64,000 nt of DNA from Bryum argenteum (taxonomy: Eukaryota; Streptophyta; Bryopsida; Bryales; Bryaceae), in the NCBI GenBank assembly GCA_037043015.1, contig CM073330.1:7706012-7770011 (forward strand), read 5' to 3'. Positions 35,682 to 56,783 of the stretch are shown here, one piece after another. The position numbers and the translations under genes were made by a program. The notes beneath the pieces are model-generated. The model was not told the DNA's origin and did not search any database. It was given only the letters and a program-made list of their open reading frames with translations. How positions within the stretch are numbered: the stretch's first letter is position 1; every line of letters begins with the position of its first letter.

Positions 35682-38076
35682 TCATGTCATGTTGAAACGT
35701 TTTTAGAATTCAGAATTTGTATCCTCTTGGAAATTGACTTACTTGTTGCCATAGTTGGAACTTGCATTTCAAAAACACAGTTGCAATTGTTTCTCCAAAT
35801 ATTTCAGATGTGTTTTCAAGTATTGGAGGACATATTACTTTGAGATCAAAACAAAAAGAATCATTTGATGATGCAACTATGACAGCTTGTGAATTTTTAT
35901 CGAATGCATCTAAGTATAGATTGGCCTACAATAGCACCCTTCTTTTTCATTTACACTATTCATTGCTTTTACTTGTTTCACTCTTTCAAGCTTTGATGAA
36001 CACGGGTGCATTTTATTTACAAGGCAATGTCACAAACACGTGGAAATTGAATCCTGTGAGAAAATAATGTTAATTCCTCATTTCCTCTTGGCACACTTGC
36101 TCTTTCTTTAAAGTCAGTTCTAAGGAGTTTCTCACACAGTCAAGATGGAATATCACAAATCTTAATTGTGCGCAATCTAACAAGAGTTATCTCAAATTTG
36201 AAATCTTATAAACTTCATAAAAAGTCAATGTGCTTATGTCTCTTCAAGCTTGCTCAACGATAACAACGTTAACAACGTTAAGGTAAAATTGTTGTAGGAT
36301 CTTCCACAACACAATTCTAGAGTTCAATAAATTTCTAGAACTCTATGATACAACTTGGCCGTTTCTTGTTTGTGGGAGTTTAAATTGAAACAAATAATAA
36401 TAATATAATATATATTTTTGTTGTTTTTTTGGCCTTTGAACACCATTGCACGCCCATTATCTCTAAATTGTGATTCAAAAAGGTTCTTGTTCTTGAATGG
36501 TTGTTGAGGTATAGTTGCACATTGAAGAAATTATAGTTTGAGCGAATATTCCTCTAAAATTGAATAGTGAGGTGAATATGACCAAGATATTCGTCATGTG
36601 AAAATTGAGAAAAAACATTTTATGGAAAGCCGTCACTTAACAAGAGTGAGGTGAAAATGACCAAGAAATTTGCCATTTGAGAAGCTAGACAAACAATTTT
36701 AATGATTGTGGACACTTGAGAATAGTGAGGTGAATACGGCCAAGATATTTACAATTTGAGACATTGAACAAACATCATTTTGCATGTCCACACTTACAAT
36801 AGTGAGGTGAGTAAGACCAAGATATTTGCCATGTGAGATGTTGCACAAATATTTTATTGAATAATGGCACGAATAATCAAGAACAACTATGTGATTGAGT
36901 TGCAATTCAAAAATGTTGCCCTTTGAGCACTTTTCAAAGGACTGGTGAGAACCATCAAAATGTGTGATATTAGGGACTAATAGGTGAATGATATTACAGA
37001 AACTATTTGTTGTGCGCAATATCAAGAAACGTGACATTTCAGGGGCATAACTAGATATTCACCTAAAATGGCACGTTTTAGAACATGGCCAAAACGGCAC
37101 ATCGAGGTTTACCAAAATGGCACATGAAATAAAGTCAATTTATGGAAATCAAGGTTGTGTGCAACTTTTTTGTATTGCAAATATTGGTCAAGTGGAGCAA
37201 CGTCCTCGAACGGCCTTCTTCTAACAACATACTTAGGAAAATGAGCAACGTATTACCAAGTGAAAACGTTGCTAAAGTACATACAAGGGTGTTGTTGGAT
37301 TTGAGCAACGTTTAAAAACGTTGCAAACCCCCTCCCCTACAATTGTATGGTAATTATAATAATTGAATAAATAATGCCTTTAAAAATAAATAATTCACTC
37401 TCAATGTAAATTGCTTTTTCACATTATTTTTCTTGAACATGGAGTAATGCCAAAACCACATATCTGCCTTACACTCTTCCCGTCACTGCCATTCAACTGT
37501 GCTATGAGTCTACGTTGATCTTGTTAATAATCTGATATAGAGCAATTTACACACTGTTCTGTACACACCCACTCGTGAAACATCACGAAAAGCGAATCAA
37601 ATACAAACCTTATATATAACGCTCTTTAGGAACTTTCTTGATGAAAATTATTCCTCGTCTTCTCTTAAGACCATTATGAAACGAATGAAACGAGTTGCTG
37701 TAAATATGATGCATTCTGCACAAGCCAATTTTTTGCACTTTCACCTAATTACATTCTTTACTTTACAAGGGAACCCAATCGTTATTCTGACAACACTTAT
37801 CAAGTGAAACACCAGCATCACGAACAATCTCCTTCTTGCCAGTAATGCTCAACAAAAATGAGATTCTCTAGAAGCCGCCATAGGTACACAATCGCCAATA
37901 ACCAGGAGGTGGTTTTCAGAAATGATCCACAGAGGTGTTCTAACTACGAAACATTGCAGTTGCTGTTAAGTCTCCATACACACAGATGTTCACGAACCAA
38001 TACACAACCTTATGTGCACTACAAAACCCCCTAACTAACTACCTTCCAAGTATAGACAAGAAGTACATCCTTTTAC
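35682..38076. other. Spacer between the UGT cluster and the phosphatase gene
   Basis: No gene recognised; a 101-codon frame at 35762-36067 shows no domain. Contains a 79-bp tandem repeat (36566-36880) and, near 37190-37325, repeated GCAACGTT words including the 20-bp palindrome GCAACGTTTAAAAACGTTGC at 37305-37324. Confidence 0.5.
36566..36880. repeat. Tandem repeat, about 79-bp unit, four copies
   Basis: The phrase AGTGAGGTGAATA-GACCAAGATATTTGCC starts at 36566, 36645, 36724 and 36801 (spacings 79, 79, 77), each followed by a TGTGAGA...ACAAACA..TTT segment. Copies differ by about 10-20%, so the array is old. Could be a small satellite seed or an internal tandem of a decayed element. Confidence 0.8.
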
Positions 38077-41000
38077 TTACAATCCGGAATGACATGTTCC
38101 CTGCTGCCCAGGAGTACTAGATTTGAAAAGCCACCTGAACAAGTGCGATGGAATGGAGAAAAACTTCTGGACAAATGTCTGGGGGGGTGGTGTATGTACC
38201 ACTGACATCGTGCATAAGTCCTCAAAACTCGACTTCATGTGAGGTGAAACCACTCGCTCCTATTTCACCAAAACATAAAACGGAAAGGATCAGCACAAAA
38301 CAAGACTCCTGTCAATGAACAAATGGTTTCTAATAGACAACGTTGACAGTTGATGCAGGAAAGTGTTACTAATTGAAAGGGTCAAGTAGGACTCACCTTG
38401 AATGCCTCAATCGGACAGAAATATGTGCCGTTACACGCCTGCAATAACAAGAGACAACACCGATCAAATAACTGCGTGCATATGAATGATGAAAATTATA
38501 AGAGAAACTCCAGTTCTTGAACTCCAACCTATTCTTAAAAACACTCTTGAGGTGTAGTTCCTACCTACTTATCTAGGACCCATACAACAAGATCCATAAA
38601 TCACACCAAGTGTACAAAATACATAGTACTCTTGTCGGTTCAACCTATTCTTGACAAGGTGTACACTATACTAGTTCCTACCTACTTGCTCCCTCTGTCT
38701 CTCAAAAACACCATGACTTGCCAAAAATGGTTGGATTTTCTTTTTTAGTCTAGATTACTCATTTAGATTACTCATTGATATAGTTAAACATGGTTTGGAT
38801 TACTCACTAATATTAAATGTCAAATCTTGATTTTTTGTGGTTTTTTGTGAGACGAATGTTTAAACCAAATCATGGTGTTTTTCAGAGACAAAGGGAGTAC
38901 TTTTCAGTGCTTAAAACAAAATGAGACATGTCATCTAACACAGGCATCCGAAGCTTTTAGAAATCCATACAACAAGGTTCATGGACCCTACCATAGTGCA
39001 ATGGTAAATGGTAGGCATGAAGATTCCGACCCAGCCATGAGCCTCAACCACCGCACCAAAGCACATGGTGCCTCTTGTACAAATTACACAGAAGAGGAAG
39101 TTGAGAATTTGATTTTGCCATGTGCAAAGAGTTGCTTACCGGCATCACCACAGGCTTCTCGTTATGTAAGGCTTGAACCAAATACTGCGCACCAGCAGCG
39201 TTATTTGCAGGGCACTTGTGAAGAACCAAAGCCGTGTTTGCTGCAAACGGCGCCACGAGAGCTGCTCGCCAAAGACGCTTGTGAGGAGGCCTAAGTGGAG
39301 CCTTCAGCGGTTCTTCATTCTGAACCTTCGTCACATCTGCGCCAAAACAAGCCATTATTGATACAACATCACAATCGTGTAGAACAGGATGGAATGTATC
39401 GGTTTACTAACTTACCATCGTGTTCTAGAAAAAGCCCAAGCAGACAACTGAATGGAATGACAGTCTCTGCATGCGCAAACCGCAACCTCGCTTTCTCCAC
39501 AACCTTGTGCGATTCTGCATAAAAAGTGCACAATGATCATTCTCCACAGAAAGACCAATATGGTATTCAATATAAATATACCATAGATTTTAAATGGATA
39601 TAAAATGAATTGGAGACTTACGGTCAGCCACCATAGCACGATCCATGCTTTGCACCACGTCATCCAACAATGGAATACCCATTCGATAGTTGATCGTTTC
39701 TCCATATCCTTTCAAATGAAACATTTCAAGATCATCCGCCCATTCCAGCATCTCAATCTGCACATAGAATACGCATTAGTATCTACTACAGAGATTCAGA
39801 TTGAGCATAATTATGAGGTATTATGATGTGCTGCACCTCCTCATCTGTGAAAAGGCCACACGCTTGATCGACCACATCCAGAAGAGAAGCCTCCTGTAAA
39901 GAAACCACAAAGAGCATCAGAGTGGTGAAAAAACTGAAGGATAAAATTGGAAAAAGGAATTGAAAGTGTGATTACGTTTTTGCAAAGCAACCATAGTGAG
40001 GTCACGTCGTCGCCAGTAAGTGCCAACCCGTAACGACCCTTAACTCCTTCTGCAACAAGATCGTAGACATCCTTCTGCTCAGCTGCTACTTTGGGCTTAC
40101 GATGCTTTTTTGATTCCTGCACACGAGAATTTAAATTATCCAAATACTATTACTACAAGAACGTGAAGATTCTTCATCAAAATTGCTGTCGGTGTAGCAA
40201 TTGCAAACCTTGTAGGCCATGCAAGTGTCATGGAAGCGAAGGTGAATGTCATGGCCTTTAGTGTCAGTGATGACCGAGAAAGCACGATGCTTCCCCACAC
40301 CCAAGGTGCCCTGGCCTGCGAACATCCCCATTCCGAATGCCACCGAGCTTGCGGCAGATCTCCCAACCTGAAACAGCAAACACCAATCTTAGTATAATAA
40401 CACACCCACTTACAATACAAGTGTCATTCCAAACGCATGAAAAAGTCTACAGATGCACTCAAATGATAGCACTCGATTCATAATTCATAATTTGGATGCT
40501 ACATATAAGTAAATCTGGACAAGAACAAAAAGTAAACAAGCGTCATTCTCCAGTTCCTCATTGCGTAATGTGATGATTGAGGTTACTGTTTCATTTTTGC
40601 CAAGAATGTACATTTCTTGTTCAATGAACGGGGGAAAGATCCCCATGAGCTATTTCGGGACTTTCAGACGACGAGAAATGGTTTAGATGCATCAACTGAT
40701 ACGTATCGATAGATTCTGCAAAATGAGGACTGAGAAGATTATCCGAAGCTTGACATTTTCGTGATGGATATAGATCGAACGAGCTAAGAGTTGATCACAA
40801 TAGAGAAGATGTGGGGAGCATGAGTACCTGCGTGGCGATGATCGGGTACACTTCAGGGTGGTACTGATCGTTGAAAATTTCCGGGTACATGAGCTTATAC
40901 CGTAGAGCCAAATCGTAATGCTCCTCCTCTCCTTTCGGAAGAAGCTCCCCTCCGATCTGTTTGTCCTCAGACCATGGTGACTTCCAATCAAGGATCCAGG

Positions 41001-41734
41001 CGGGTGGTGTCGTTGTCTTCTTGCTTTGTGAGTCGACAGCCTTCTGGTACAACACACGAAGCCTGTCGGCAAACTTCTCCAACTCTGCGATCCGCTTCTT
41101 CGTCGGTCTCCGTGATCCATGCCTTGCCTGCAATCAACCCTAACTCCATCAAATCCCCTGTAACCAATCTTTCAATACTATCACTATTAGCCACATACAT
41201 CAATCCCTACAAACAAGACATACCACCATATCTGCACATAATGAGCTGGATTAAAAACCAGCTGCCACAGACTCCAATCAAAATTAGGGTATCACTCCAT
41301 ACTGAGATAAAATGGCAGTTACAATTGCAATTTCGAAAAACAGAAAAGTGGGTATTGGAGCTTACCACAAGGTTGACATGCACAGGGACGCAACCATCAG
41401 GAGTGATCACAGCATCCTCGTTGCCATACTTGATCTTACTCCCAGCTGCGTAGCTGCAAAACGAACAACATTTTTGACCTAGTTTAGCAAATTTTGGTGC
41501 AATAAACCCTAAACCTCAGCTGATTTTAAATTTCAGGGATCAAAGAAAAGTACGAGGCGGGCAATGGATGGATCGAGGGGGAGGGAGGGATTACCTGGTG
41601 GTGCTGGAGATGTGTTGACGGACATCGAATTTGGCTGGCTGTTCGAGAGCTGCTACTAGATTGATCGCTACCACGAACAATAAGGCTGTGAGAAGACCTA
41701 CGAATCGAATTGCGCGAGACGCCATCGTTATCAT
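38077..41734 (-). CDS. MINPP1: Multiple inositol polyphosphate phosphatase (histidine acid phosphatase)
   Basis: Predicted secretory-pathway phosphatase that removes phosphates from inositol polyphosphates, including phytate. Eleven exons in 5'-3' order: 41734-41595, 41453-41366, 41127-40828, 40367-40209, 40116-39976, 39893-39837, 39757-39622, 39514-39416, 39336-39140, 38438-38397, 38259-38077; all GT/AG, phases join, product about 513 aa. The N-terminus is a signal peptide (RFVGLLTALLFVVAINLVAA). The phosphohistidine motif RHGSRRP is at residues 78-84 and the proton-donor motif HAE at 355-357 (RFAHAETVIPF). Further family marks: LRFHDTC and the C-terminal APFAANTALVL. No KDEL-like retention signal ends the chain (HSGL), so apoplast or vacuole is more likely than ER. 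An ATG at 41725 is an alternative start. Confidence 0.92.
38689..38897. mobile_element. Stowaway-like MITE in intron 9 of the phosphatase gene
   Basis: Left end CTCCCTCTGTCTCTCAAAAA then ACCATGACTTG; right end CAAATCATGGTG then TTTTTCAGAGACAAAGGGAG. The two ends are near reverse complements. The same family is at 15030-15206 and 57098-57329. The right flank is TA, the left is TG, so one side of the target duplication has decayed. Confidence 0.75.
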
Positions 41735-42529
41735 TGTTGGTTGAAATCGATCGTGATTGACATATAAGTGATTCAGTGTTGAATTGTATTCAGTGTGGTA
41801 ATTGGGCCAATTGGAGGGGGTCATTACGTGCCAGCTAGTTGGGTCCCGGGGATGACACGTTGCGACCGACCGCTGGATGGGACCGTCCATTGTGGTGAGC
41901 TCTCGTTGGATGACACAATGGCTTGTGAATAGTAGATTGGTCTACATTGGAGCAGGTCCCACAGTGGAGCTCTGTGCTAAATAGGTAGATTAGTCCTTAA
42001 ACTTTGGTCGGGCTCTCAGTTACTAAATATAGATCGTTTGAGGTTGAATATTTTTTGTAAACTGTAGAATTTCTCCTTACCTTTCCAAAAAGTCATTTTG
42101 AGCTTCATAATCCTTCATACTTTATTTATGGTCAAAGTTTGAAAATACTATTCCAAATCTAGCCAAACTACGGTACATGCTCATTTTATCCTCAAGACCT
42201 GTTCAATATCAATCAAATAACAAATACCTTCAAAAATTCACCAAAAATTGAGCTGAATTTAACGCTTTATGAGCTGAATTAAACACTTTAGCATTGGAGT
42301 ATGTTGATGATGCTCGTAGAGCTAAATAGAAGAATGATAATCGCCATACCAACCAATAAACAAATGACTTGTTATGCATACTTACCGCGGGTCATCTCAT
42401 TTTGTTTGGGCAGCAATGCAAGGAATGCCACAAGTTTGCAAAACGATGGAAGAAGACCATTGTTACAATGATATTTATATCGTATTCCGGCTCAAAGATT
42501 GCTCGGTATCTCTCAATACATCCAAAACA
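41735..42529. other. Promoter side of the phosphatase gene
   Basis: Right of the phosphatase start, no gene is recognised. The first few hundred bases should be its promoter and 5' leader (transcription runs leftward). No clear TATA box was found. Confidence 0.5.
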
Positions 42530-42720
42530 GATAGATAGATAGATAGATAAAAACTCCGGTCCCTTTTTCAGGGCCGGCGTGATTAGAGTGTCTGTTCGTC
42601 AAGCCAGCGTCCCAAAGCCCACCGGGCAAGAGGACCCTGGTACAAGACTACTCACCCCTTTCGGGATTAGACACTATAGTAGCCAGAGGAAGCAAGAGTA
42701 ACCCAAAATAATCAGCCGCA
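42530..42720 (-). mobile_element. SINE 3' part, reversed copy
   Basis: Read on the minus strand, a block with GACGAACAGACACTCTAAT, GCCGGCCCTG and GGGACCGGAGTTTTTATC matches the end of the 21941-22337 SINE and finishes in (TATC)n, seen as GATA repeats at 42530-42549. Sequence further inside (CTTGCCCGGTGGGCTTTGGG) also matches the body of that SINE loosely. Confidence 0.65.
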
Positions 42721-42769
42721 CATTTCTAAGGTTTGTGTAAGGTTATATTTCTTGTTTGCTCGTGGGAAT

Positions 42770-43021
42770 GGTCGCCAAGCCATGATTCCTGGTTGATTGG
42801 TAGGGATGTTTGAGTCGCAGATAAGCGTTCCGGGTTCGATACTCGGAGGATCCGTTTGAGCGTTTAATGTGATGTACATGGCTTGGTGCTGCTGGTGTGT
42901 TATACATAGGCAGGAAATTTGTACCAATCAATCGGCCCCGTCCCATCTACCTGAGACAAGTGTGACTTTTCCTGTGGGAAGCGGTTTACCTGCTTCACAC
43001 GCACACCCCCACCTCTTTCCT

Positions 43022-43023: not shown

Positions 43024-43063
<40 letters not shown>
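43024..43063 (-). other. Poly(A) tail of the LINE
   Basis: Forty consecutive T on the plus strand, read as A40 on the LINE strand, directly after the ORF2 stop TAA (43064-43062). A long unbroken run suggests a young insertion, since such tracts shorten and mutate fast. Confidence 0.85.
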
Positions 43064-43066
<3 letters not shown>

Positions 43067-46000
43067 TTATAGTGGGGATTGTTTGGTTATTCTCAATTTT
43101 CCTTTCGTGTAAAATAATTGAACCGGCGTGTTGAATGGCGATGGTATTTATTTCCTGGAATGTGCGTTTTATGCATGTTTCTGATAAGTTAAATTTTTCT
43201 GCCAGAAGTTTCATCGATGGTTTGTGTGTTGTGCCTCTAGCACCCGCTGTGATGACTATGAGGGGGTCTACTTTCCATCCTAGGTTACGGAGGTTATCAA
43301 GAAGGGGTTGATATTTGTCGGTTTTGTTATTGATTGTTTCTTGAGAGAATCTATCATTGCAATATGTGAATTCTATAAATTGCAGTGTGAGGTCGTCTGT
43401 TGGGTGTGATGGAGGGTCGTTTTTGTGTGGTAGACCTTTGACGCATAGTATATCCGGTTTAAATCTAGCGTTGCATTGGCATCTCTGTTGTGTACATTCG
43501 CATTGTAATAGCCATGGAGGGACCGTGTTTTCTTGGGGGTTGTTATTAAATGTGCCTGCGTTCATGAGGATATAACATCGTGATTTTTGTGATGAGAGAA
43601 TTAATTTTCTTAGTTCCCATACGGCTTTGTTATGTCTCTTAATTCTAATGGCGTGTATGTGGTGGTGACCACATTTGAGTAATGCGTGTAACCATGTGTC
43701 GGCGTCCATGGAGTTACATATAGAGCATGTTATTGATGGGAATCTTTCTCTGCCAAAAAATAGTTGTTTCCTTGCATTCCCCATGTATTGGCCGGTGCGT
43801 AGCTTTAGAATAATTGTTTTTTGGGAGTCCGTAATTGTGGGGTTTAGCCAGTATGCATTCGATAATTCATTGTCAATGTCCGTGTTTGTTGTCCATTTGT
43901 TGGTGTTGGGGAATTGGTCAGCGAGTATTATAAGGTTGTTGTCGTAGTCTTGTTTGTGTAGGTATGTTTGAAGGCATCTGACCGGGCCTTTGTCTGGGCG
44001 AGTTAGGGGTCCTGGCCATTTATATTTCTGGTAGTAGAATGGCGTGGTGTGTGCAAATTCGTGGGGTTTTGTGGCTACCGCATATTTTTTGGTGGTGCCG
44101 GTTTTCGCAAGTTTATCTGCTTGCTCGTTGCCAGTAATGTTAATGTGCGCTTTAACTTTGTGGAATATAGTAGGTTGGGTACGGTTTTGTAGTATTTCAA
44201 CCATTTCCGTTAGGATGGTTTTGTCAGGATGGTTGTGGTGTGTAGATGGGTGTAATATTTGAGTATTTAGATTATATAGGCAGTTTATGCAATCCGTGAA
44301 GATATAGGCCGGTTCATTTGGGTATTTGGTGCTAATTAAGTGCAGGGTTGTATGAATAGCCATTAATTCGGCACGGAAGCAAGTTTGAAGTCCAGGGAGT
44401 CTTTCTGATATTTGCATGTCTGGTTTTGTGGGATTGTAGATGCCGTATCCAGCCTTTTCTTTTTTCCAATGCCCATCCGCGGCTTCTTTAGGTGGTATGA
44501 AGGAGCCGTCTGTATAGTAGCTATGTTGTGGTTGAAATTTTAGGGTAGGGTTGATTTCGAACGTTGGTAGAGGGGGTATACATGTTGGTTCGGAGTTTGG
44601 GTTTATATATGGGGGGTATAACAAATTATTCCATCTTTTGTTTTTATTGACAATAGTATTGTATGGGGTTGATGGAGCTTGTTGTATATAAAAGTGTGGG
44701 ATTGCCGTTGCCTCAATTGCATTTTTGATGTTGTTAATTTGTTCTGATGTGCCAACATGATTGTTTTGATGGTGTATGCACATGATGGAAATTGCAAGTG
44801 GTTCGGTTGTTGGTTTGTATTTTTGTGGGGGTGCTGGGATTTCGTATGTGATGGAGTCCGCTGTGAAATGAGTTATTATATGTGTATCCAGGAATGGTCC
44901 AATATGTGGGGTTGGGTTTTGGTACCAGTTTGGGTCGGCGGTAACTATTATGGTAATTGTATTCGGGTCGTGTTTGGCCGCTAATCTCGCCCAGTGGATG
45001 GCTTGTTGGGTTGTTTCCGGATTGTGTGTATGCGCATAACCTATGCCTGTCCATTTATATTCGAAGGCGTTGCCTCGGGATCCAAAGATTTTGTCTCGGG
45101 AGAAAGGGGAGAAATATTCTGTTATTTTGGTGGAGCACGTAATTGGTGATGAGAAGTATGAGTGATTGATTTGGAGGTTAGTGGTGATGTGATCGAGAAT
45201 GTTTGTTGGAAGGGTGTGGTGGGGTGTTAGTTTTGGGTTTTTTTTGGAGGAGTGGGCTTTATATCTTTGGTATAGCCATATTATTTCTGTTTCGAATGTT
45301 TGTGTGTATGGCATTAGCCCGTGTGAGTTGTTTGAGTATTTATTAAATTGTTGCCATAGCCACTGTAATCTGTTTATGGGTATGGTGGTGAGGTATCGAC
45401 CATTGTCTTCGTATAAGTGAGCTGATTCGTTATTTATTTGTATTGTGGTTTTGTTAGTAATAATGTCTCTTTCTGGATTACATTCTGCGAAGTGTATTTG
45501 TATAAGTGGGGTAATTGATGGTGGTGGTATGAACCTGGTGTCCTTGAGTTGTGCTTGTATAAAGTGAGTGTTGATTAGGTTTTGATAGTAAGTGTGTTGT
45601 AATTTGGTGTAGTATTCCTTAAGTAGTTGAATATTGTGTGAAATAACTGTTGGATAATTTAAGGGAAATAGTTCTCTTTGTTGGAGCCATTTATGGTATG
45701 TGATGTTATTGTAATGCCATTTGCATAGGTATGTATTGTAGAGTTTAGGTATTTTGTATTTGTCTTTTGTATTAACTGTTTTGTGATTTAATATTGTGTT
45801 TATGGGATATTCAAGAGGGTTGTTTTTAATGTTTGGTGGTGGGTTTATTTGGTGAGTATTTTGGTGGGTAGTAGGTTGTGGTTGGGTGTTTGAATGTCTT
45901 GGGAGTAAGTCAGAATTGTCTGAGATGTATATTGGTTTGAGTGTGCGGGCCGGTGGATGTTGGGTGCAGGTGTCGGGGCAATTTGGGTTGCATTTAGTTT

Positions 46001-49000
46001 GGCAAAATAGTTTTTCAGCTATTTCTAGCGCACTTTTCTCAAGTCTAGTAGGTGTTTTATGGTAGGTTGCAAAGTCTGTTGGTGACATGAGGTTTGTACC
46101 GTTTGGGAGAGAGATGTGTTTGATTTTGGAGATATTGTGTATTAAGAGCTTGTGTAATAGCTTGATTGATAGTTCTGGGCTGAGGTGAGGGAGTTCGGTT
46201 GTGGCTTGTTCTAACCACTTACGTTCCAGTTCGGTTTTGTGTAACTGGAAGTCTTCATTGGTACTTTTTAGATGTATACCTCCATCTTGTTTGAGAAGAT
46301 ATAGTGTTCTTGATATGGGGGAGCTTATACAATCAGAGGCTTTTAATCTGGGGGTGTTTTCGGCGCCACCGTGTTTGGAAGTTATATGTTGCATAAGGCC
46401 TTTGTAAATGTTGCCCAATCTACCTTGATCATTAAGTGCGTTTCTAAGTTGCTCTCCGATACATCTTAGATATGCGTTTTTTAGTGAGAATGCTTGAAGA
46501 CCAAAGAGTTTGTGAGGAAGTTGGGTAATCACGTTCGCTGTGCATTTTGGAAGGCCACAGATTGTTTTTTGGATACCTATAATTTTTTTGTCGAGTTTTT
46601 TGATGGTTGGTAGTGAGAATGGGACTGCATAGAAGCTATATGTGATCCCTGCTCTGATGACTGTATCAACCATGTTGATTTTTTGTTTGATTGTTGCGGG
46701 GCATTTTGCGAGTTGCTTACATTGGTCAATGAGTTTGTTTGTCGCGATGTGTGTTTGAATTTTCCATTTTAGGGAGGGTACCATGTGGATACCAAGGTAG
46801 ACATAGGGTTCGTTTTGGTGAAGGATAGGAATTGGTTGGTTTCTATAGGTGATGTGGTGTTGTTGTATTTTTTCCTTGAATTTATCGGGCTTTATTTTGG
46901 ATTTGTTTGGACAACCTGTGATAGCACATTTTTGCGCGCTGAGGTCCATTCCTGCCCATTCACAGAATTTGTCTATTTTGTAAATTTGGGTTTGTATGGA
47001 TTGGAGGGTGTTTGCAAGTCCTGCTAAGTCGTCTGCGTATGCAGCAGTTGTAATATTTACTTTCGATGTACCAAATGTATAGCCATTGTTTCCTCTTTGT
47101 AGCCATCTTAGTAGAGGTTCTAGAAATATAAGAAATAGGTATGGGATTAATGTGTCGCCTTGAATGGTTCCTCTTTGTATTGGAATTGGTTCTGTTTTGC
47201 CGAAATATTCGCCTGTGAATATTGTGGAAGAGTTTGCGTATATATTACCAACTAGCGTTACTGCGTCTTCCGGGTAACCGAGGTCTTTCATTACTGCGAG
47301 TAGTCGAGCATGGTCTAGGGAGCCAAATGCGTTTTTAAAGTCTATATATAGTATGTAGATGTCTTGTTTTGTGAGTTTTGCGTCTTCTAAGGCTGCATTG
47401 ATGAGTTGTATTTGTCTGGCTGTGCTTCTTTCTGCTCGGAAGCCTTCTTGACTATCATGTAGTATTTGGTGATGTTCGCCGTATGTTGAAAGTATTAGTG
47501 TGACAGTACTCGTGAAGAGTTTGTAGATTGTATTGGCTAGCGCTATAGGTCTGTGGTTTGGTAGTATTGATGGATCACCTTTTTTGTATATTAGTATGGT
47601 TAGGCTTAGTTTCCATGATGCTGGTATTTGACGTTGTTTGTAGCAGTGGTGAAAAAACATGGATAGTAGTTTGTGAAAGTTGTCGGGCATGTTTTTTAGA
47701 ATGGAGTTAGGGATTCTGTCCGGTCCTGGTGCTTTGTTATTGGATAATTGTTTTAAGCATTGGTCGTATATTTCCTTGTTGAAGTATTTGTGCAAGGGGG
47801 TTTGTGAGTTACCTCTTTTGTCTATGACATAACCGTCTAAGTCGTGCCATGGGTATTGTCTCACGCTACATGTGCATAGTGTTGGGTGCTGGGGTTGGAG
47901 GTGGCATGTTGGGACTGTGGGGCTATTACTTTGTGATTGTTGTGTATGTATTTCCAGTGCAATGTCTTTCGGGTTAGTTAGAAGGTTATTATATCTATCT
48001 GTGATACAGTCAAGTGGTGGGGTATCTTGGTGTTTGAAGACTTTTTTATTTATTTTTTTTGGACTTTTGTCGTATAATTGCCTATATTTCGTAATGGCTT
48101 TTTTAATGCATGTTTGGGTGAATTTTGTAGTTATTTTTTGTGCTTGTTTTTTTGATGTTTTTGCTATTTCTGCGATGGTTTGGGTCCATTCTTGTGGGTT
48201 GTTGGTTTGAGGCGGGGGAGGTGGAATGTTTGTATGTGTGTGTTTGCTTAGTTCTTCTATTATGGGGTGGTTTTGCCAATTGGGGTTGTTTTTTGTAATG
48301 TATATAGCCTTGCGAATTAAATGGTATGTGGTTAGGTGTTTTTTCCATTGTTTTTGGAGTTTTCTTGGCAGGAATCCTCCTTGTTCAGATGTGCGTGGTG
48401 TTAAAGTAGGCAAGGGTGGTGCGCTGCAAGTGTTTTCGATTAGCTTGGATGTTTTTTGAATTAGGTGGTCTAGTTTTTCATAGGCCGTTTGCCATTGTGT
48501 ATTTGTTAGTTGAGTATTTGAGAGAAGGGAGGTGAGGTCGTTGATTTCGTCTGAGTTGTCTTCGTAGAATATTGTTTTGAATTTGTCAAGGTTTTCTTGT
48601 GGAATGGGATTTAAAATCCTTATTGGTGTAGTTGTTGATTTTAGTGGGGGTCTTGCGAGCAATGTCTTTGGAGGTATTTGCAGGATAATTGGGGAATGAT
48701 CTGAGTTCAGGTTGTGTTCTGTAAGAGTTAGTGATGAGTATGAATTATTATTAGGGGTTTTTATAAAAAATCCATCTATTAGGCTGGTTTCGCTATAATT
48801 TTGTCCACCTTGTCTTGAATATACGGTGTTTGTAGGTATATATGTTAGTTGTAGTGAATCTGTGAATGCGCGCCAATCAGTGTCTTCAATTTGCGGTGGT
48901 GTTGTGTTTGATTCGTGTTGACGACCTATGAGAGCTATGTCTCTATTAAAATCTCCGCATAATATTTGGATGTGGTTAGGGTGTGCTGTAATTTGTTGTG

Positions 49001-49535
49001 TTATTTGTTGTTGAATTGTTTCTAAGTATGGGGTGTCTTCTGGATGTGATGGCATATACATGTGTATAAGTAACCAAGGTTGTAGAGGTTCGTTTTTTAT
49101 TTTTATAATTTGTAAGTATGGTGATATAGCGGCAGGGGTTGGGATTTTGGTAATGTTACCTGGGTATGTGTATTTGTTGTTTATAAATAACAAAAGACCA
49201 CCTCTTGTGGGTGTATAATTGATTCGTTGTCGCATGCATCTTGTTAGTGCGTGTGTATTGTTGAATATCATTTTGTGGTCAGGGAATAAGTTTTGGAGAT
49301 ATTTGGTAGATTTTGTGGCAGTTAGTTTAGTTTCTTGAATTGCAATGATTGCCGGGCTTGTTGGGGTGTTAGTGATTAGTTCATGTAGATTTGGGAGGGC
49401 GGTGTTGAGTGATGAGGCATTCCATGTGACCAGATGCGTTTTATGGTTCGTGGTGACTGGTGCTGTATTTTGTGGGGGGGGGTATATCTGGTGTTGGAGG
49501 TGGGTGCGAATATTCAGGAAGGGGTTCGTTGAATT
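43062..49535 (-). CDS. LINE ORF2: APE endonuclease, RT, RNase H, R2-like endonuclease
   Basis: Frame open from 49535; its first ATG is at 49271, already inside the endonuclease, so translation probably enters from the upstream frame. Before that ATG lie the APE motifs TWNASSLN and IQETKLT; counting from it (2069 aa), GDFN is at 106-109 and SDHSPI at 190-195. RT spans about 540-790 (YIDFKNAF 642-649, YADD 745-748). A Cys cluster sits at 1090-1102. Residues 1386-1480 resemble PCIF1-type methyltransferases (SPFSRDKIFGSRG) but lack an NPPF-type catalytic motif. RNase H has D1588, E1635, D1660, H1709 and D1719. A CCHC knuckle (C1849, C1852, H1862, C1867) and RHN precede an R2-like PD-(D/E)xK nuclease: PD 1939-1940, E1967, D1973, K1983, K1986. 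All catalytic residues I looked for in EN, RT and RNase H are present and the frame has no stop. Confidence 0.9.
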
Positions 49536-50883
49536 TCAGGGCTTCAGCAATTAGGGTATCGGGTAAAAATGGGAATTCTTTTTTTAATTGTTCTTGATTG
49601 GGTGGTGTGTTGTTTTGTTGAATGAATTCATATAATTGTTTGTGTATGGTGTTAGGGGGATTTATTATATTAGAGTTTGTGTTTTTGAATTGTGTGTATG
49701 GGTGTGGGTTGTTAAGATGTCTTTCCGATGGGTTTTGAAGTGTGGCCATTTCGTTAAGTAGTATAGTGGTCCAATTTGGATTAGTGGGATGTTCAAGGAT
49801 GCGGTTACATGCTTCAGGTGTTGGGTTTATTGTTGTGATAAGAGCGAATAGTATGCGTGGTGCTGGATGATGAGAGTTTTCCCGGACGTAGTTTGTGAGA
49901 TATGGATATTGCATCTGTGCTTCTAGATGTTTTGGGTGGGTATTTATGAGACAGGCCGCAAATTGTGATGATAAGTGTTGGTATTCAGGGTGTAGTCGAA
50001 TTGTGCATGGTATAAAGTAGTTTTTGCATCTGCGTCTATGGATGGGTGGATGAGTTTTGAATACATTTGGCATGGGCCCTGGGTTAGTTTCGACATCTCC
50101 ACATTTTGTTAGGTGATATTTGTTGTTGTATGTGTAGTGGTATATTTTAGTGGTATGGGTTTGTGTTTTTGGTATTTTTGTGGATATATTGTTGCTTGCG
50201 TGTGCTTTGTATGTTGTTTTATGAATTATTGTTTTGTGGGTGAGTCTGGGAGATTGGGTTTGTTTGTTTGTGTGTGTATTATATTGAGTAGGGTTTGTTG
50301 TTATTGGTTTGGATATTTTAGTATGTTTTGAGTGGTATATTTGTTGTTTTATGATGGGATGCTTTGGCTTTTTTATGGGTTTTTTTGGTTTTTGAGGCCG
50401 AAGGCTTAGTTTTCCATGTGATTTTGTGTTGGGTTGGACTAGGCTTTGAGGTTTGGTAGGTTGGTGTTTTATGTTGGTTTGTATGTCATTAATTTTTGAG
50501 TTTGTGATTATTTTGGTAGTGTGGTATATTTGGATTTTTGTAGTTTGTTTATGGGGATTTTTCTTATTATTGTTATTATTATTTTTATTATTATTTTTAT
50601 TCTTTTTATTTTTATTCTTTTTATTATTTTTATTTTTGTTTAAATTCTTTTTCCTATTTCTTTTTCTTTTTAATTTGTTTGTATGTTTTTTTTTTTTATT
50701 ATTATTTTTTATTTTTATTATTATTTTTCTATGTTTTATTCTTTTATTTTTGTTTGTTTTAATTTGGGGTCTATTTGGAGTTGTGAATTTTCTATTTTTG
50801 GTAGTATTAATAAATACACTTGGTTTTTTGGTTTGTGTCCTTGGGCCTTTGCTGGACCACTTTAGTTTTCCGTCTCCATTGTG
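49441..50883 (-). CDS. LINE middle frame: K/N-rich region, 2A motif, unknown domain
   Basis: Open for 480 codons without ATG until 50073. The upstream part is Lys/Asn/Thr-rich, with near-pure N/K stretches at 50560-50760 (ATT and TTT repeats on the plus strand). At 50106-50074 it codes for KCGDVETNPGP, a canonical 2A ribosome-skipping signal; the product after the skip would start with Pro followed by MPNVF. That downstream product (about 210 aa) has scattered Cys and His residues (HRRRCKNYFIPC) but no domain I recognise. The frame overlaps the end of ORF1 by 22 nt in the -1 register and ends (TAA 49443-49441) inside the start of ORF2, just after a C9 run (49482-49474) where losing one C would fuse it to ORF2. 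Confidence 0.8.
   Translation of the reverse strand, partial: HNGDGKLKWSSKGPRTQTKKPSVFINTTKNRKFTTPNRPQIKTNKNKRIKHRKIIIKIKNNNKKKKHTNKLKRKRNRKKNLNKNKNNKKNKNKKNKNNNKNNNNNNKKNPHKQTTKIQIYHTTKIITNSKINDIQTNIKHQPTKPQSLVQPNTKSHGKLSLRPQKPKKPIKKPKHPIIKQQIYHSKHTKISKPITTNPTQYNTHTNKQTQSPRLTHKTIIHKTTYKAHASNNISTKIPKTQTHTTKIYHYTYNNKYHLTKCGDVETNPGPMPNVFKTHPPIHRRRCKNYFIPCTIRLHPEYQHLSSQFAACLINTHPKHLEAQMQYPYLTNYVRENSHHPAPRILFALITTINPTPEACNRILEHPTNPNWTTILLNEMATLQNPSERHLNNPHPYTQFKNTNSNIINPPNTIHKQLYEFIQQNNTPPNQEQLKKEFPFLPDTLIAEALKFNEPLPEYSHPPPTPDIPPPTKYSTSHHEP
50074..50106 (-). other. 2A ribosome-skipping motif
   Basis: Reads K-C-G-D-V-E-T-N-P-G-P and fits the D-(V/I)-E-x-N-P-G-P consensus exactly; the preceding HLT also suits the usual upstream helix. 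Known behaviour of the family: the ribosome does not form the last Gly-Pro bond and gives two proteins from one frame. 2A sequences are established in non-LTR retrotransposons of trypanosomes and some animals. Its presence needs translation of the ATG-less frame upstream, which supports entry from ORF1 by frameshift or non-AUG start. Confidence 0.9.
50555..50760. repeat. Low-complexity ATT/TTTATT tract
   Basis: The plus strand is almost only A and T in ATTATT and TTTTTATT units; on the LINE strand it codes for Asn and Lys runs in the middle frame without a stop. The bias comes from repeat growth inside a coding frame rather than from a non-coding gap. Confidence 0.85.
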
Positions 50884-52592
50884 TCATTCTCTTCTCTTTG
50901 CCCTAGGCAAAGTTTTTTGTTGGATTCAATTGTTTGCATTGTCATCGCAAATATTTCACCCATTGCTTTGAGTTGCTGATTGATGCTATCTGATGCTTGT
51001 TGGTGCACCTTCTCCACATAGCTTATAGCCTCTCCAACTATCTCTTTTTTCATTACACCCATTTCTTTCCTCAAAACGTCCATGGTTTTCGAACTTCCTT
51101 TTTCAATTGCTTCATTCACGATGTGTTGTAGGTCCTCCTTTGTGTATGTTTTTGCCGTATTGTTCTCCAAGGCTTGCACCGTGCTCGCAAGGGCGTTGTT
51201 AATATCATTAAATCCGAGTCTTTTTAATTCGTCCTCACTAGGTTTGACATTCCCATCTAAGCTTTTGGGGTGAGGGAAGAATTCAACATATTTATTTAAT
51301 ATTTTGTGTGTTTTTTTGACATACTTCTTGTAGACCGCTACATTTAGACATTCAACATTGCAAATACCAACATGTCTACCGTTTTCTAGATGGAAATATA
51401 CTTCAGTCACATTGTTATTTCCCATGAGTTTCCTTATTTCCGCTTCAATTGTTTCTTTTGTTTTGGTCTTGTTAAGGTTCTTAACAATCAACACCAACAC
51501 GTTCCTTTTGGCTTTTTCATCATCGGTTAGTTTTCCTTTGGATGGAATGGTTGCATCCAATATTTCATTCTCAAATCTCACTTTTTCCGCTTTCAAGAGT
51601 TTGACTTGGGTGGGTGAAGTGGTAACAATCCAAGCAAAGTTTGCTTCAATGTTCTTTTGGACATTCGTGATTTCAAAATCTATCCCCCTTTTGAAGCCAT
51701 CCTCTACAAATGCCTCCATCATGTTTGCCCAATGTTTATTGGGTAAAGTGGGGCTTGTAATTTTGACCGACAATAGGCTATTAATAGCCAACGCATCATA
51801 GGATTTACAAACTTTCCCTCTTAAAGGTTTGCCATTTATATTGAGAATAAATGGTTTTTTACCTTTTAGAAGGTCCTTAGCGTCGGTTTTGGGGTTCTTT
51901 AGGTGGATTTTAAGTGTACCACACCATATGTTTGACTGATGGAAGCAAAGATAGGCAATTGGCTCACCCATGAGGGTGCCCAATTCTATGCCCATACTTT
52001 TTAGTCTTGCCTCTACAGGACCCGTTATTTCTTCTTTGGTAATGGAACGGGTGTTGATTTCAAAGTAGATTGCCACTTGATAATCAAGTGCATACCCATA
52101 CTCATCAATCTCCACCTCATTAGGGACTTGTCTGAGGTTGAAATGCTGACCCTCTTTCCCATCAATTCTACTTGAGGGCCATTCCTCTTGTAGCACATAT
52201 GGGAAGGAGGGTGTGCTTTTTTCGAACTCCTCTTTCTCTATTTTACCTAGACCTTTCTTAATGGTTTCTTCTTTTTTCCTTATTTTTTCAATCATCTCTT
52301 CATTGTAATGGTTCAAGAAATTATGTGTTTGAAAGCCAAGCCAAAACCTTCTCTCATAGTTCTTCCCTTTAGACTTTTTTGACATGGCGACTTCAGCCTC
52401 TTCATTGTTCTGTCTTTTGGAAGTTAAGCCTTCGGACATGATAAGATCTTGATTTAAATTTTTAACAACGCCCTTGGAGAGTGTAGTTCCACTTGTTTGA
52501 GCCATCCTATGACATGCACCAGAGTTTGAGATGATATTTTTGATTTGTTCAAAATTACTCCCTTTATTCCCTTCTTCTCCTTCTCCCCTCAT
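50862..52592 (-). CDS. LINE ORF1 protein with RRM-like and coiled-coil regions
   Basis: 576 aa from the first ATG (52592); MAQTSG at residue 30 is an alternative start. Likely the RNA-binding ORF1 protein of the retrotransposon. Residues 364-442 have a beta-alpha-beta pattern of an RRM (VLVLIVKNL, then a helix, then EVYFHLENGRHVGICNV and KYVEFFPHP), and 170-330 may hold a second such fold. Residues 465-560 are helical with coiled-coil character. No CCHC knuckle is seen. Codon and base use are balanced, unlike the A/C-rich frames that follow, so the two parts of the element may have different histories. The stop (GAA AAC TAA) overlaps the middle frame in the -1 register; no standard slippery heptamer is present. 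Confidence 0.8.
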   Translation of the reverse strand: MRGEGEEGNKGSNFEQIKNIISNSGACHRMAQTSGTTLSKGVVKNLNQDLIMSEGLTSKRQNNEEAEVAMSKKSKGKNYERRFWLGFQTHNFLNHYNEEMIEKIRKKEETIKKGLGKIEKEEFEKSTPSFPYVLQEEWPSSRIDGKEGQHFNLRQVPNEVEIDEYGYALDYQVAIYFEINTRSITKEEITGPVEARLKSMGIELGTLMGEPIAYLCFHQSNIWCGTLKIHLKNPKTDAKDLLKGKKPFILNINGKPLRGKVCKSYDALAINSLLSVKITSPTLPNKHWANMMEAFVEDGFKRGIDFEITNVQKNIEANFAWIVTTSPTQVKLLKAEKVRFENEILDATIPSKGKLTDDEKAKRNVLVLIVKNLNKTKTKETIEAEIRKLMGNNNVTEVYFHLENGRHVGICNVECLNVAVYKKYVKKTHKILNKYVEFFPHPKSLDGNVKPSEDELKRLGFNDINNALASTVQALENNTAKTYTKEDLQHIVNEAIEKGSSKTMDVLRKEMGVMKKEIVGEAISYVEKVHQQASDSINQQLKAMGEIFAMTMQTIESNKKLCLGQREENDTMETEN

Positions 52593-52642
52593 CTTTATAT
52601 GAGGGGCTTTGTGAAGTATGAAGAGGGGGGGGAGTATGTTCG

Positions 52643-55342
52643 TTATAGTTTTAATTTGTTTAAATGGCTATCTTTTTTACTAGTAATGTCATACATACTT
52701 TTGCATAAAGAATCATATGAACAAGTGATTTCATAATTATTGTGTTGGACATACAATGTGGTAGAGTTAATGTGGCACCTATATTTATATTGAACATACA
52801 ATGTGGCCCATACATATATGTAAGCTTTTACATTATTACAATTGCATACATACATATTGTGGGTATACAAAAAAGAGGAGAAAAAGAGGTTAGGAAACGT
52901 ACCTGGTTTTTGTTCCTGGGCACTCGAATGTGTTGGAGCTGTTGAGGCAGTGAGCCTGAGTTTTGCCTTTGAGCAGCGGGCGTTACTACGAGGGCAGTCG
53001 CACGGCGATGGTTGCTGTTGTCGCAACAGCCAGGGAAGTAGGTGTAGCTCCGCGGGGCGCCTCAGCAGTGGGTGACGGTTTGCTTTCTCCCTTAGCAGCG
53101 CCGGGCGGACCAGCAGCAGAGGTCGGCGCTTCTCTTTTCTTGCTAGATTGACTCGTTTTCTCTCTGTCCGGCCGCCGTATGCAGAGCAATTGCTATGCGT
53201 CAGGGAGTGAAATGTGTTTAGAAACACTTTTGTTGGCCTTACAATGGGCCTTGGGTTTTGCTGATGCGGGGTCGATTGTGTGCGGAACGGGTACGTCGGA
53301 GCGTCGACGTAGCACCTTGGGTAGACGTAGTCGCAGCAGCTCCGACAGTCTTTGTAATCGCAGTACCTCCGGCAGACTTCGTAATCGCAGCACCTTCGAT
53401 TGGCGTAAGCACAGCCCCTCTTCGTAAATGCAGCACCTCCGGCAGTGTTAAGTGCAGTCCTGTGGGTGCGCCGACTGCAGTTGGGCGGTTGCCGCAGCTG
53501 TTGGTTTCGATGAGGGTGCAACGGCTTCTCCTCCTTCGGCGATAACGATCCTTTGTTATGGTGCGACAGCCGTTTCTTTAGGTATGCGCTTGTTGCTGTG
53601 GCGTCGTATGCAGGAGCCGCGTTGGTCTGAGCGGCAGGGGAGGTATTATTTGCGCTGGCAGCTTCCGTTGTTCCTGCGACAGCGCTGGTTCCTAGGTCGT
53701 CTTCGTAAGTGCTATCACCTCTGTCAGCGTCGAGTTTGCCACCTCTAGCACTGTATCTTTGCTGCGGGCAATTAGGGTTGATTTGCTGCGCTTTCTGCTG
53801 CAATGTGGGGGTGTTTGACGTCAGGTTGCCTTCCTCTTCAGCTGGTCCGGTCGGTTTGTAGTCCTTCCTCCGTAGCGGACCTCCGCGTTGAGGTAGTTTT
53901 ACTGAACGTCCTGTCTTCTTCACCGTTTTAGTGCGCGGCAGTAGCTTCTCCACACACCTCGATCCCGAGCACTGCACAGCACTTTGGCAAGGCAACGGCA
54001 AACAGCAACACAGAAACCCGAAGTGCAGATTGGAGCAGTAGTTACTTGAATGGTACAATCTAACTATGAAATTGAAGCAAGGCAGAAAAATAGCAAAAGA
54101 GTGGTGGAAGGGGGATTTCTTACTGCCGTGGTTGTCGTTGGATGCAAGAGCTTCAGCGGGCTTCTTTGGCTGGTGCGGCAGCGTGGAGGAGTGCGGCAGG
54201 TATTTAAGGAGAGTGCTTGGGGACGAAGGCAGCTTGCGGGCATTCTTGCAGAGCTCGTAAGTACGGTGAGAGGTAATTTTAAGAACACACGCTGTTTCCT
54301 TTATGTAGTGGGGGATCCCTAGCTTTCTTGTCGATGGATGTTGGTGTTTGTTGCAGGGACACCCTATTCTCCTGCTGTTCATCTGCCAGGGAGTTTTAGG
54401 GTTAGGAGTACTTACCTTAGCAAGTGCCGTTGAATCAGGGCTTGAGGGGGGCCGCTTAGCCATCCTGTTGGTATAGTCCTTTGTCTTCGTATCCACAGTT
54501 CCATGTTGCTTCAAGCTGGTGGTGTAGGTCGCAGCATTTTCTGCGGTGAGCTGCTCATCTGTGATCTCGTTCTGTCCTAGGTAATTCGTCCCTGCTCCAC
54601 CTGTTTGGCATCCTGGGATAGTGTTGCAGCTAGAGCTGCAGGGCTGAATGTGGTTACTAGTCTTCGTAGCCTTGATGAGAGTTCGAGGGCTTGATTTGGT
54701 GATGATTCGTGAGTTTGATTCGTCTCTCCTTCGCTGTGGTCGTATTGCAGATATCCAGCATGGCGCAGCTCCTTCTTCTGGGTTGTACATCAATTTTGTG
54801 CGGTTGGGGTCGTGCTTGCTCATCAGTCTGCAGTTAGCCTTGGAGCTCGGGGTTCTAGTCACTGGTTTAAACTTGCTCGAACTGGCAGCAGTGCTGCCGT
54901 GGTTGTTGTGTGCTTGTCTGTCTTCGAATCTTGTCTGTGGCCTCTTCTTTGGTGCGCCGGTGATTAGGAGAATGTTCCTGTTCGTCTGTTGTGCTGACTT
55001 ATTGCAGCTTCGGTACCTGCTCCAGCTTCCAGTATTTTCTGGTATCTCTAGATTTGCAGAACTGTTAGCATTCGATCTAAAATATAGTACTAGATCTACT
55101 ATGAGGGAGGTGTTAGTAGCTATGATAGTTAGTGCGAGGAATGTTAGCAGCATATGAGATGTACTGAGATTTGCATAAAAACAATAAGAGATTGGGTTGT
55201 GAGTAAGCCTGTGTGGCGTTGCTGATTTGCGCCGAGATGATCCTTCTTCCTTGCGCATGTCTACTCCTTCAAGTTCCTTGTCTTGGGTGCAAGGGAGAGA
55301 GAGTTGTGATCTGTATGGATCTTCGCAGACTATGGTGATCAA
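52643..55342 (-). CDS. 899-codon open frame of unknown function, possible LINE leader ORF
   Basis: Open without a stop for 2.7 kb on the LINE strand while the other strand shows only short frames; this is far longer than chance would give. The end lies 51 bp before ORF1. I recognise no domain. Near the N-terminus a hydrophobic segment (HMLLTFLALTIIATNTSLIV) looks like a membrane span; the rest is rich in Ser, Thr, Pro, Lys and Arg, with a Cys- and Tyr-rich tandem repeat (CDYKDCRSCCDY) from the 27-bp repeats at 53308-53445. Its GC content is visibly higher than its surroundings. It could be a leader ORF of the retrotransposon, the 5' UTR with an incidental frame, or a separate gene. No relatives come to mind, so no function is given. 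Confidence 0.4.
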   Translation of the reverse strand: MITIVCEDPYRSQLSLPCTQDKELEGVDMRKEEGSSRRKSATPHRLTHNPISYCFYANLSTSHMLLTFLALTIIATNTSLIVDLVLYFRSNANSSANLEIPENTGSWSRYRSCNKSAQQTNRNILLITGAPKKRPQTRFEDRQAHNNHGSTAASSSKFKPVTRTPSSKANCRLMSKHDPNRTKLMYNPEEGAAPCWISAIRPQRRRDESNSRIITKSSPRTLIKATKTSNHIQPCSSSCNTIPGCQTGGAGTNYLGQNEITDEQLTAENAATYTTSLKQHGTVDTKTKDYTNRMAKRPPSSPDSTALAKVSTPNPKTPWQMNSRRIGCPCNKHQHPSTRKLGIPHYIKETACVLKITSHRTYELCKNARKLPSSPSTLLKYLPHSSTLPHQPKKPAEALASNDNHGSKKSPFHHSFAIFLPCFNFIVRLYHSSNYCSNLHFGFLCCCLPLPCQSAVQCSGSRCVEKLLPRTKTVKKTGRSVKLPQRGGPLRRKDYKPTGPAEEEGNLTSNTPTLQQKAQQINPNCPQQRYSARGGKLDADRGDSTYEDDLGTSAVAGTTEAASANNTSPAAQTNAAPAYDATATSAYLKKRLSHHNKGSLSPKEEKPLHPHRNQQLRQPPNCSRRTHRTALNTAGGAAFTKRGCAYANRRCCDYEVCRRYCDYKDCRSCCDYVYPRCYVDAPTYPFRTQSTPHQQNPRPIVRPTKVFLNTFHSLTHSNCSAYGGRTERKRVNLARKEKRRPLLLVRPALLREKANRHPLLRRPAELHLLPWLLRQQQPSPCDCPRSNARCSKAKLRLTASTAPTHSSAQEQKPGTFPNLFFSSFLYTHNMYVCNCNNVKAYIYVWATLYVQYKYRCHINSTTLYVQHNNYEITCSYDSLCKSMYDITSKKDSHLNKLKL
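53308..53445. repeat. Imperfect tandem repeat, about 27-bp unit
   Basis: Units start with CGTA and read like CGTAATCGCAGCACCTCCGG; six can be counted (53308, then near 53326, 53353, 53380, 53404 and 53423), some shortened. The unit is a multiple of three, so the enclosing frame gains a nine-residue repeat. Tandem units in this position resemble promoter monomers in some LINE 5' regions (inference). Confidence 0.7.
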
Positions 55343-56783
55343 GGGGAGCTCTTTGTGACATTTGCCTAGTAATGAGTATGACCCAGCTCATACAGAAACA
55401 GATCTGCCAACACTAGGATGCCAACACCCATCCCAGATCTGTTTTCTAGATCTAGATCTGAATCTAGATCTGAAGTTTCTCATGGAATGTCTTTGTTTCT
55501 CTAGTGTGAGATTGTTTGTGCTCTGTGCAATCACATGTTTCTAAGTAATGTCACAGCAGCCCAGCCTGCTCCTCCCCTTCTCACAGCCATAATCACGTAG
55601 TATCCATAGCTAACACAGAGGTGGCTAGAAAACTAACACCTTACTCTCTCTCCCTCCTCACCACAAAACGCGGAGCACTTCAGCCTTCCATCTCGGCAAT
55701 ACTTTCACCGGCAATAGTGCTCCTACATCCAAAACAAAACAAACCAAACCAAAACAAACCAAACCAAACCAAACAAAACAATACAAATCAAAACAAACCA
55801 AACAATAAATAATTATTCTAGAAGATGGATGAAGAACGACTAGCAATAAATACGGATTGACAAAATGAATGAGAAAGGTGTAGGCTGTGGTTACAAAGTT
55901 ATTCCTTACTAACATGTGCAATAGCTAAGCCATTTTAACACTTGGTTGTCCAATAAATATTATAATTTTGAGATTTTCAATTAAAAATGTCCGAAATATG
56001 TGTTTTCTCACTATCACTCTTTTAAATTATTAAGGTTGTCAAAAACTTTGACAATGTAAAAATTTAACATCATTTCCGTCGAAAGGCCTATCACAATAAC
56101 TACGGGAAATGATCAATGAAGAGAATCCTGATGGTGATGGTTTACATATATGTATCGGTTAACATATATGTACTGATAAACCTTGAACACTAAGTAGAAT
56201 AGTCAACCATACATAAATTAGAGTCTGTAACTTAAAAATTGGTAGTGAATGTTTCTCTCTTTCTTTTGGTGAACATGTAGCAATTTCCTTCCGGCAAGAA
56301 AATGGTTCTACCAAATCGGAGAAAGACCAAACGAATTCTTGAAGAAAGACCAAACAAATTCTTGGAGTTACTTCCATCGGATTGTAATAAAACACAGATG
56401 AAGTATACATCCACTTCTATATATGCACTTCTGGACATTGACCTAAAAGTTTGAGTCATGTGTGACGAATAATCAAACAAGGAAGAATTGTGCTCAAAAC
56501 ATTAAATGGTCGATTCTATCGCGGAGGTTTATATGAAATGATGCAAGACAAGGAATGCAAAGAATTGAGTTCTTTCCAGAGCAATGTTGAAACATCCACT
56601 CCACTGGAATAAGTGTGATCTCAACAAACTATACAGAATATAATATCATTATTGTTATGTCCTGTGGGCATATCATCAAGAGTAGGTCAAACAGAAAACT
56701 ATATTCATGCCAACCCAGAGGGACCTACCTGGTGTAATTTCGCTTCTACAGAAAGTTGGATCAACACAACTGTAGAGTAAAGA
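55343..56783. other. Spacer between LINE region and CFAP57
   Basis: No gene. Contains AGATCTAGATCT-like short repeats (55436-55472), an A/C-only tract of AAACC and AAAAC units (about 55728-55805), and AT-rich sequence. The right end should hold the CFAP57 promoter. The unknown 5' end of the LINE may lie in the left part. Confidence 0.5.
55728..55805. repeat. Low-complexity (AAACC/AAAAC)n tract
   Basis: Seventy-odd bases of units such as AAACCAAACC and AAAACAAACC with almost no G or T. Simple-sequence growth is the likely cause. It resembles neither a CCCTAAA telomere repeat nor a poly(A) tail. Confidence 0.85.

Follow-up and report, generated by a model that had tools for sequence, protein, structure and literature searches.

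Dualen/RandI elements (Kojima and Fujiwara 2005, as cited in passages of PMC4640811 and PMC3636483) are long interspersed nuclear elements (LINEs) with two different endonucleases in a single pol protein, and a passage of PMC4640811 draws on them for the argument that an APE took the place of an R2-type nuclease in LINEs. Dualen-type LINEs are described in relatives of Chlamydomonas (excerpt of PMC8226300), and an excerpt of a 2022 review of plant transposable elements gives two LINE superfamilies for plants, L1 and RTE (PMC9033089). Here, we describe a LINE on the minus strand of a 64,000-nucleotide stretch of Bryum argenteum contig CM073330.1 (positions 7,706,012 to 7,770,011; 'the window'). 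This element is very probably a nearly complete Dualen/RandI-group member residing in the nuclear genome of a moss, with a PCIF1/CAPAM-like domain in its pol protein and a 2A motif and candidate first open reading frame (ORF1) upstream.

A LINE protein with two endonucleases

The pol frame (43062-49535, minus strand) comprises 2157 open codons; the two other forward frames contain 114 and 108 stops. A preliminary description of the window had proposed one protein with both an APE-type and an R2-like endonuclease, encoded by an unbroken frame of about two thousand codons with a long poly(A). Both parts hold: a tail of 40 A follows the frame, Pfam recognizes the APE, and the motifs then noted (the APE set, CCHC, RHN and PD...E...K) all lie where they were placed. 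The features of the pol region are as follows:

48666..49430, minus strand: APE-type endonuclease (residues about 36-290; Pfam Exo_endo_phos, E 1.4e-7)
46506..47768, minus strand: reverse transcriptase (RT; residues about 590-1010; YADD intact; Pfam RVT_1, E 2.2e-28)
45966..46004, minus strand: cysteine-rich motif CQTKCNPNCPDTC (residues 1178-1190, between the RT and the PCIF1-like domain)
44736..45608, minus strand: PCIF1/CAPAM-like methyltransferase-fold domain (residues 1310-1600 as modelled; PF12237 at 1400-1502)
44097..44522, minus strand: RNase H (residues 1672-1813; Pfam RNase_H, E 3.4e-12)
43065..43763, minus strand: CCHC knuckle, RHN and R2-type restriction-like endonuclease (RLE; residues 1925-2157)
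43024..43063, minus strand: poly(A) tail, 40 A, starting inside the stop codon TAA

RVT_1, RNase_H, PCIF1_WW, Exo_endo_phos and Exo_endo_phos_2 (E 8.8e-7) match pol above the curated Pfam cut-offs. The domain order is APE, RT, PCIF1/CAPAM-like domain, RNase H, CCHC and R2-type endonuclease, with RNase H between RT and RLE. The R2 clade is defined by an RLE as sole endonuclease, and L1 and RTE by an APE as sole endonuclease; this pol carries both.

To judge conservation we used a set of 121 proteins (the window protein and 120 listed relatives), with domains called by profile. By sequence, the APE, RT, RNase H and RLE active sites are intact. The window copy has APE residues N39, E68, Y160, D195, N197, D254, D279 and H280, of which D195 and D254 are kept in 71/71 relatives. 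RT residues D835/D836 are kept in 116/117 (one gap). The RNase H catalytic residues D1676, E1723, D1748 and D1807 are present together with H1797, and the E/D/H/D residues among them are kept in 78/78, as is RLE residue D2028 in 59/59.

The C-terminal CCHC/RHN/PD-E-K module matches R2 restriction-like endonucleases by family profile and by predicted fold, which bears out the R2-like nuclease first proposed from motifs. A single-sequence PDB search with the RLE piece did not find R2; the family profile did. That structural match refutes the idea that an ordinary APE-only LINE (L1 or RTE) has a C-terminus resembling a nuclease by chance. Plants are said to have L1 and RTE LINEs only (excerpt of PMC9033089), and a poly(A) end is usual in plant L1 (Table 3, PMC3747384), but the domain order in relatives and an RT closer to R2 than to L1 also speak against such an element, and we give this explanation almost no credence.

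The reverse transcriptase groups with dual-endonuclease elements

Against solved structures, the RT profile scored 207 bits with R2, 137 with human L1 and about 31 with retron and group II RTs. We built an RT tree of 97 relatives (window included), rooted on three R2 as sole outgroup and holding no Chlamydomonas Dualen, L1, I, Jockey, RTE or Utopia rows. In this tree the window RT pairs with P0004 (100), within an 11-row set (98) that includes full five-domain elements. The RT thus groups with elements carrying both APE and RLE, Haematococcus and Parachlorella elements among them. The comparison asked of the RT thus covers R2 as the outgroup, and L1 by profile score only.

The preliminary description had taken the Dualen/RandI group of Chlamydomonas as the known exception to one endonuclease per LINE. 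The window element fits this group and has green-algal relatives, but the group is not confined to Chlamydomonas, as LINE/Dualen is also reported in cryptophytes (passage of PMC12747079).

Within the relative set, 56 of the 121 proteins have the order APE-RT-PCIF1-RNaseH-RLE, and thus both nucleases. The others show RT-PCIF1-RNaseH-RLE (19), APE-RT (26) or other partial sets (20), and none deviates in order. Sources include the green algae Haematococcus, Parachlorella and Pleodorina; a tblastn search of IMG/VR found no relative. These data bear on the possibility that an R2-like element acquired an APE independently, apart from Dualen. The RT is indeed nearest R2 among solved structures, but it clusters with elements, some green-algal, of the same five-domain order. 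That five domains came together twice in the same order is improbable, and we regard independent gain as extremely unlikely.

Some relatives carry extra domains: a PHD finger between RT and PCIF1, about where the window protein has its cysteine-rich stretch (1178-1190), and a C5-methylase piece after PCIF1. In P0034 and P0056, PF00145 C5 cytosine-methylase pieces lie between the PCIF1-like domain and RNase H, with PHD fingers before the PCIF1-like domain – a second methyltransferase-type domain in one retrotransposon protein. Ahead of the APE, P0072, P0100 and P0010 encode a Josephin or OTU protease. This stretch alternates between Josephin-type and OTU-type cysteine proteases (P0072, P0100, P0010, P0013), suggesting that members of the group have replaced one protease by the other.

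A PCIF1/CAPAM-like domain without its catalytic motif

The most surprising part of the element is one that the preliminary description did not mention. PCIF1_WW matches pol between RT and RNase H (E 5.4e-11), and a PCIF1-type methyltransferase fold is indicated by Pfam, family profile and predicted structure. As with the RLE, a single-sequence PDB search with this piece did not find PCIF1; the family profile did. The domain is present in 77/82 RNase H-bearing proteins. The five lacking it comprise P0076, P0102 and P0106 (Haematococcus), along with P0119 and P0122, which group in a clade of their own with the transcriptome protein P0123. Our literature searches, which covered an open-licence library, found no description of a PCIF1-like domain in Dualen-type LINEs.

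We next compared the NPPF catalytic motif across 55 aligned rows and found it in none. The window copy has HTHN at this position; other rows have NPEY (16), HPPF (3), NVPA (3) or many single variants, and the [NDS]PP[FYW] form occurs once (SPPF). The APE, RT, RNase H and RLE active sites are nearly invariant in the same proteins, so loss of the motif does not reflect general decay. On this basis, the domain is probably a repurposed, non-catalytic module that binds a cap or RNA; that it binds caps in particular is a guess.

An alternative is that the domain is still an active methyltransferase, using an altered motif (NPEY or HPPF) to modify the element's own RNA. The proline is kept at the motif positions in 47/55 rows, the commonest form, NPEY, looks selected rather than random, and the FASPL and D..FG segments common to PCIF1 are largely kept. 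Set against this are the HTHN of the window copy and the solitary SPPF among the rows. Passages on characterized proteins point the same way: in Drosophila, m6Am is absent and the NPPF motif of PCIF1 has a single F-to-H substitution (PMC9479742), and a human PCIF1 APPA mutant is reported inactive (PMC8452764). We consider continued catalysis unlikely.

PCIF1 takes its name from binding to the phosphorylated C-terminal domain (CTD) of RNA polymerase II, which raises the possibility that the module tethers the protein to the polymerase and steers insertion to active promoters. PCIF1 contacts the CTD through its WW domain. Pfam detects no WW domain in pol, and PF12237 is the methyltransferase domain rather than the WW domain (excerpt of PMC7641849), making a tether a distinctly improbable role. 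A non-catalytic binding module remains our preferred reading, and it suggests that a retrotransposon may have taken over an enzyme of the mRNA cap for a structural role.

Upstream frames and the state of the copy

Features upstream of the pol domains are listed below:

49474..49482, minus strand: run of nine C at the divergence of the upstream and pol frames (P0004 stays in one frame here)
49444..50883, minus strand: open frame upstream of pol, with an N/K-rich low-complexity part, the 2A motif and about 200 further residues beyond the motif; no Pfam domain
50074..50097, minus strand: 2A (ribosome-skipping) motif DVETNPGP, the sole DxExNPGP match in six frames of the window
50862..52592, minus strand: candidate ORF1, counted from the first ATG of a frame open from 52667 (601 open codons)
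52593..55400, minus strand: possible 5' leader, over which the A-over-T bias of the minus strand persists to about 55.4 kb

The pol frame does not start with ATG, and its first methionine is residue 89, within the APE. In P0004, sequence homologous to the end of the upstream frame continues into the APE, indicating that the window copy breaks frame at the C run; a slippage mutation, an assembly error or programmed slippage are possible causes. The upstream (linker) frame has its first methionine directly after the 2A proline and no ATG ahead of the motif. A 2A-type motif occurs in 13/120 relatives, 10 of them Haematococcus.

Candidate ORF1 has 38 relatives (36-56% identity), none with a Pfam domain. 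Hhalign found no similarity between it and the parts upstream of 2A in five relatives, so its tie to pol depends on position and strand. As the minus strand stays A-rich to about 55.4 kb, the element may be about 12 kb long; we did not find its upstream (5') end. A 914-codon frame at 52643-55387 had no Pfam match and was not called a gene.

At the other end, the poly(A) starts inside the stop codon and the copy therefore lacks a 3' untranslated region (UTR). Early polyadenylation of this one transcript could be the cause. Two upstream 9-base exact matches to the 3' flank were rejected as target-site duplications: 52151-52159 lies inside candidate ORF1, and 58912-58920 is out of register.

Is this copy a dead remnant, uninformative on current activity? 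The frame break at the C run, the linker frame without an ATG before 2A, and the missing 3' UTR and target-site duplication favor this interpretation. Against it, the 2157 open codons of pol, the 601 of candidate ORF1 and the pure A40 tail are those of a young copy, and a C9 run is a usual site of sequencing error. We judge a dead remnant to be a serious possibility but not the favored one.

Several points weigh against assignment to the Dualen/RandI group and against the role suggested for its PCIF1-like module. The evidence comes from one copy; no second copy or fragment was found elsewhere in the window, and the relatives are mostly metagenome proteins. The RT tree contains no APE-only clade. 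No target-site duplication was accepted at the element. No cysteine protease family has a Pfam match in three frames of the window, and many algal relatives have one. RandI is tabulated in green algae only, in 8 families, none ending in (A)n (PMC3747384). The PCIF1-like model agrees moderately with CAPAM (pLDDT 72.7; TM score 0.51; root-mean-square deviation about 5-6 Å by Foldseek).

A possible replication mechanism

LINEs usually copy themselves by target-primed reverse transcription from a poly(A) end. The window element would follow this route, the T-rich 3' end of the first nick annealing to its poly(A) tail. Because both nucleases keep their active sites, both are expected to cut, one per strand; APE and RLE would thereby split first- and second-strand cleavage. 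The 2A motif would free pol from the upstream translation product. The PCIF1-like module lacking NPPF may, without catalysis, bind the transcript of its own element at the capped 5' end (or at other RNA), which would bring both template ends into one complex.

A tentative generalization, which we hold to be doubtful, is that pol of Dualen-group LINEs, in hosts ranging from algae to mosses, has captured a cap-methyltransferase domain as a constant component and that this domain is no longer catalytic. It would now serve as a cap reader, gripping the capped 5' end of the element's RNA while the same protein grips the 3' end primed at the poly(A) and cleaves the two target strands with its two different nucleases. 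Such a reader, if real, would help a very long element to insert at full length and would bias the protein toward its own RNA.

Genomic surroundings

The land-plant host suspected in the preliminary description is supported by the neighboring genes. Among named organisms, the best relatives of a UDP-glycosyltransferase frame at 30698-32257 (plus strand) are proteins of two mosses, Ceratodon purpureus (54-57%) and Physcomitrium patens (51%); the best matches overall reach 65%. Named non-moss plants reach at most 37% over most rows, apart from a single match of 42% that covers 40% of the query.

This frame belongs to a tandem set of plant-type UDP-glycosyltransferase frames on both strands of window 2590-35681, including:

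2590-3975, plus strand
9688-11037, plus strand
11606-13084, minus strand
15866-17263, minus strand
25269-26693, plus strand
30698-32260, plus strand
34287-35681, plus strand

A Tc1-type transposase (27567-28446, minus strand; Pfam HTH_Tnp_Tc3_2 and DDE_3) is split over two overlapping frames and is thus probably a broken copy. Just past the LINE 3' end lies a partial histidine-phosphatase gene (40692-41941, minus strand; His_Phos_2). Between them, after the poly(A), 42400-42980 is repeat-like, contains a string resembling a tRNA B box as well as a short ATCT repeat, and is possibly a short interspersed nuclear element; ARAGORN found no tRNA and Rfam no family in the window, this segment included. 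Two tandem arrays (36563-36862 and 63010-63172) share a period of 79 bases and differ in consensus unit.

Comparison with known systems

PCIF1/CAPAM (6irv, 6irx-6is0) shares with the window domain its fold, the methyltransferase-domain profile and the FASPL- and FGS-type segments. The window domain differs in lacking NPPF, in having no detected WW domain and in lying within a retrotransposon polyprotein.

R2 elements (9nl2, 9nl3, 9dou, 8gh6) have the same C-terminal CCHC-RHN-RLE fold and the nearest RT among solved structures. To our knowledge, R2 elements have no APE, RNase H or PCIF1-like domain; the R2-type relative in our set, P0114, has an RT profile match only. Plant L1 LINEs resemble the window element in APE, RT, RNase H and poly(A) tail, but lack the RLE and the PCIF1-like domain.

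The closest described system is Dualen/RandI. The Dualen/RandI elements of Kojima and Fujiwara reportedly include a cysteine protease; the window copy has no recognizable one, and it carries the PCIF1-like domain. Going by the passages cited at the outset, the two share a single pol with APE and PD-(D/E)xK endonuclease, RT and RNase H, and have green-algal relatives. They differ in host, here a moss, and in 3' end, here poly(A) where Dualen/RandI has (ATT)n or (CTATTT)n. No moss Dualen/RandI element appears among the literature matches listed. The dual-endonuclease LINE is real, and its occurrence in a land plant is new as far as the open-licence papers searched show. A near-intact member would place the intermediate dual-nuclease architecture in a land plant and, if the moss host can be cultured and transformed, the reason for keeping both nucleases becomes testable.
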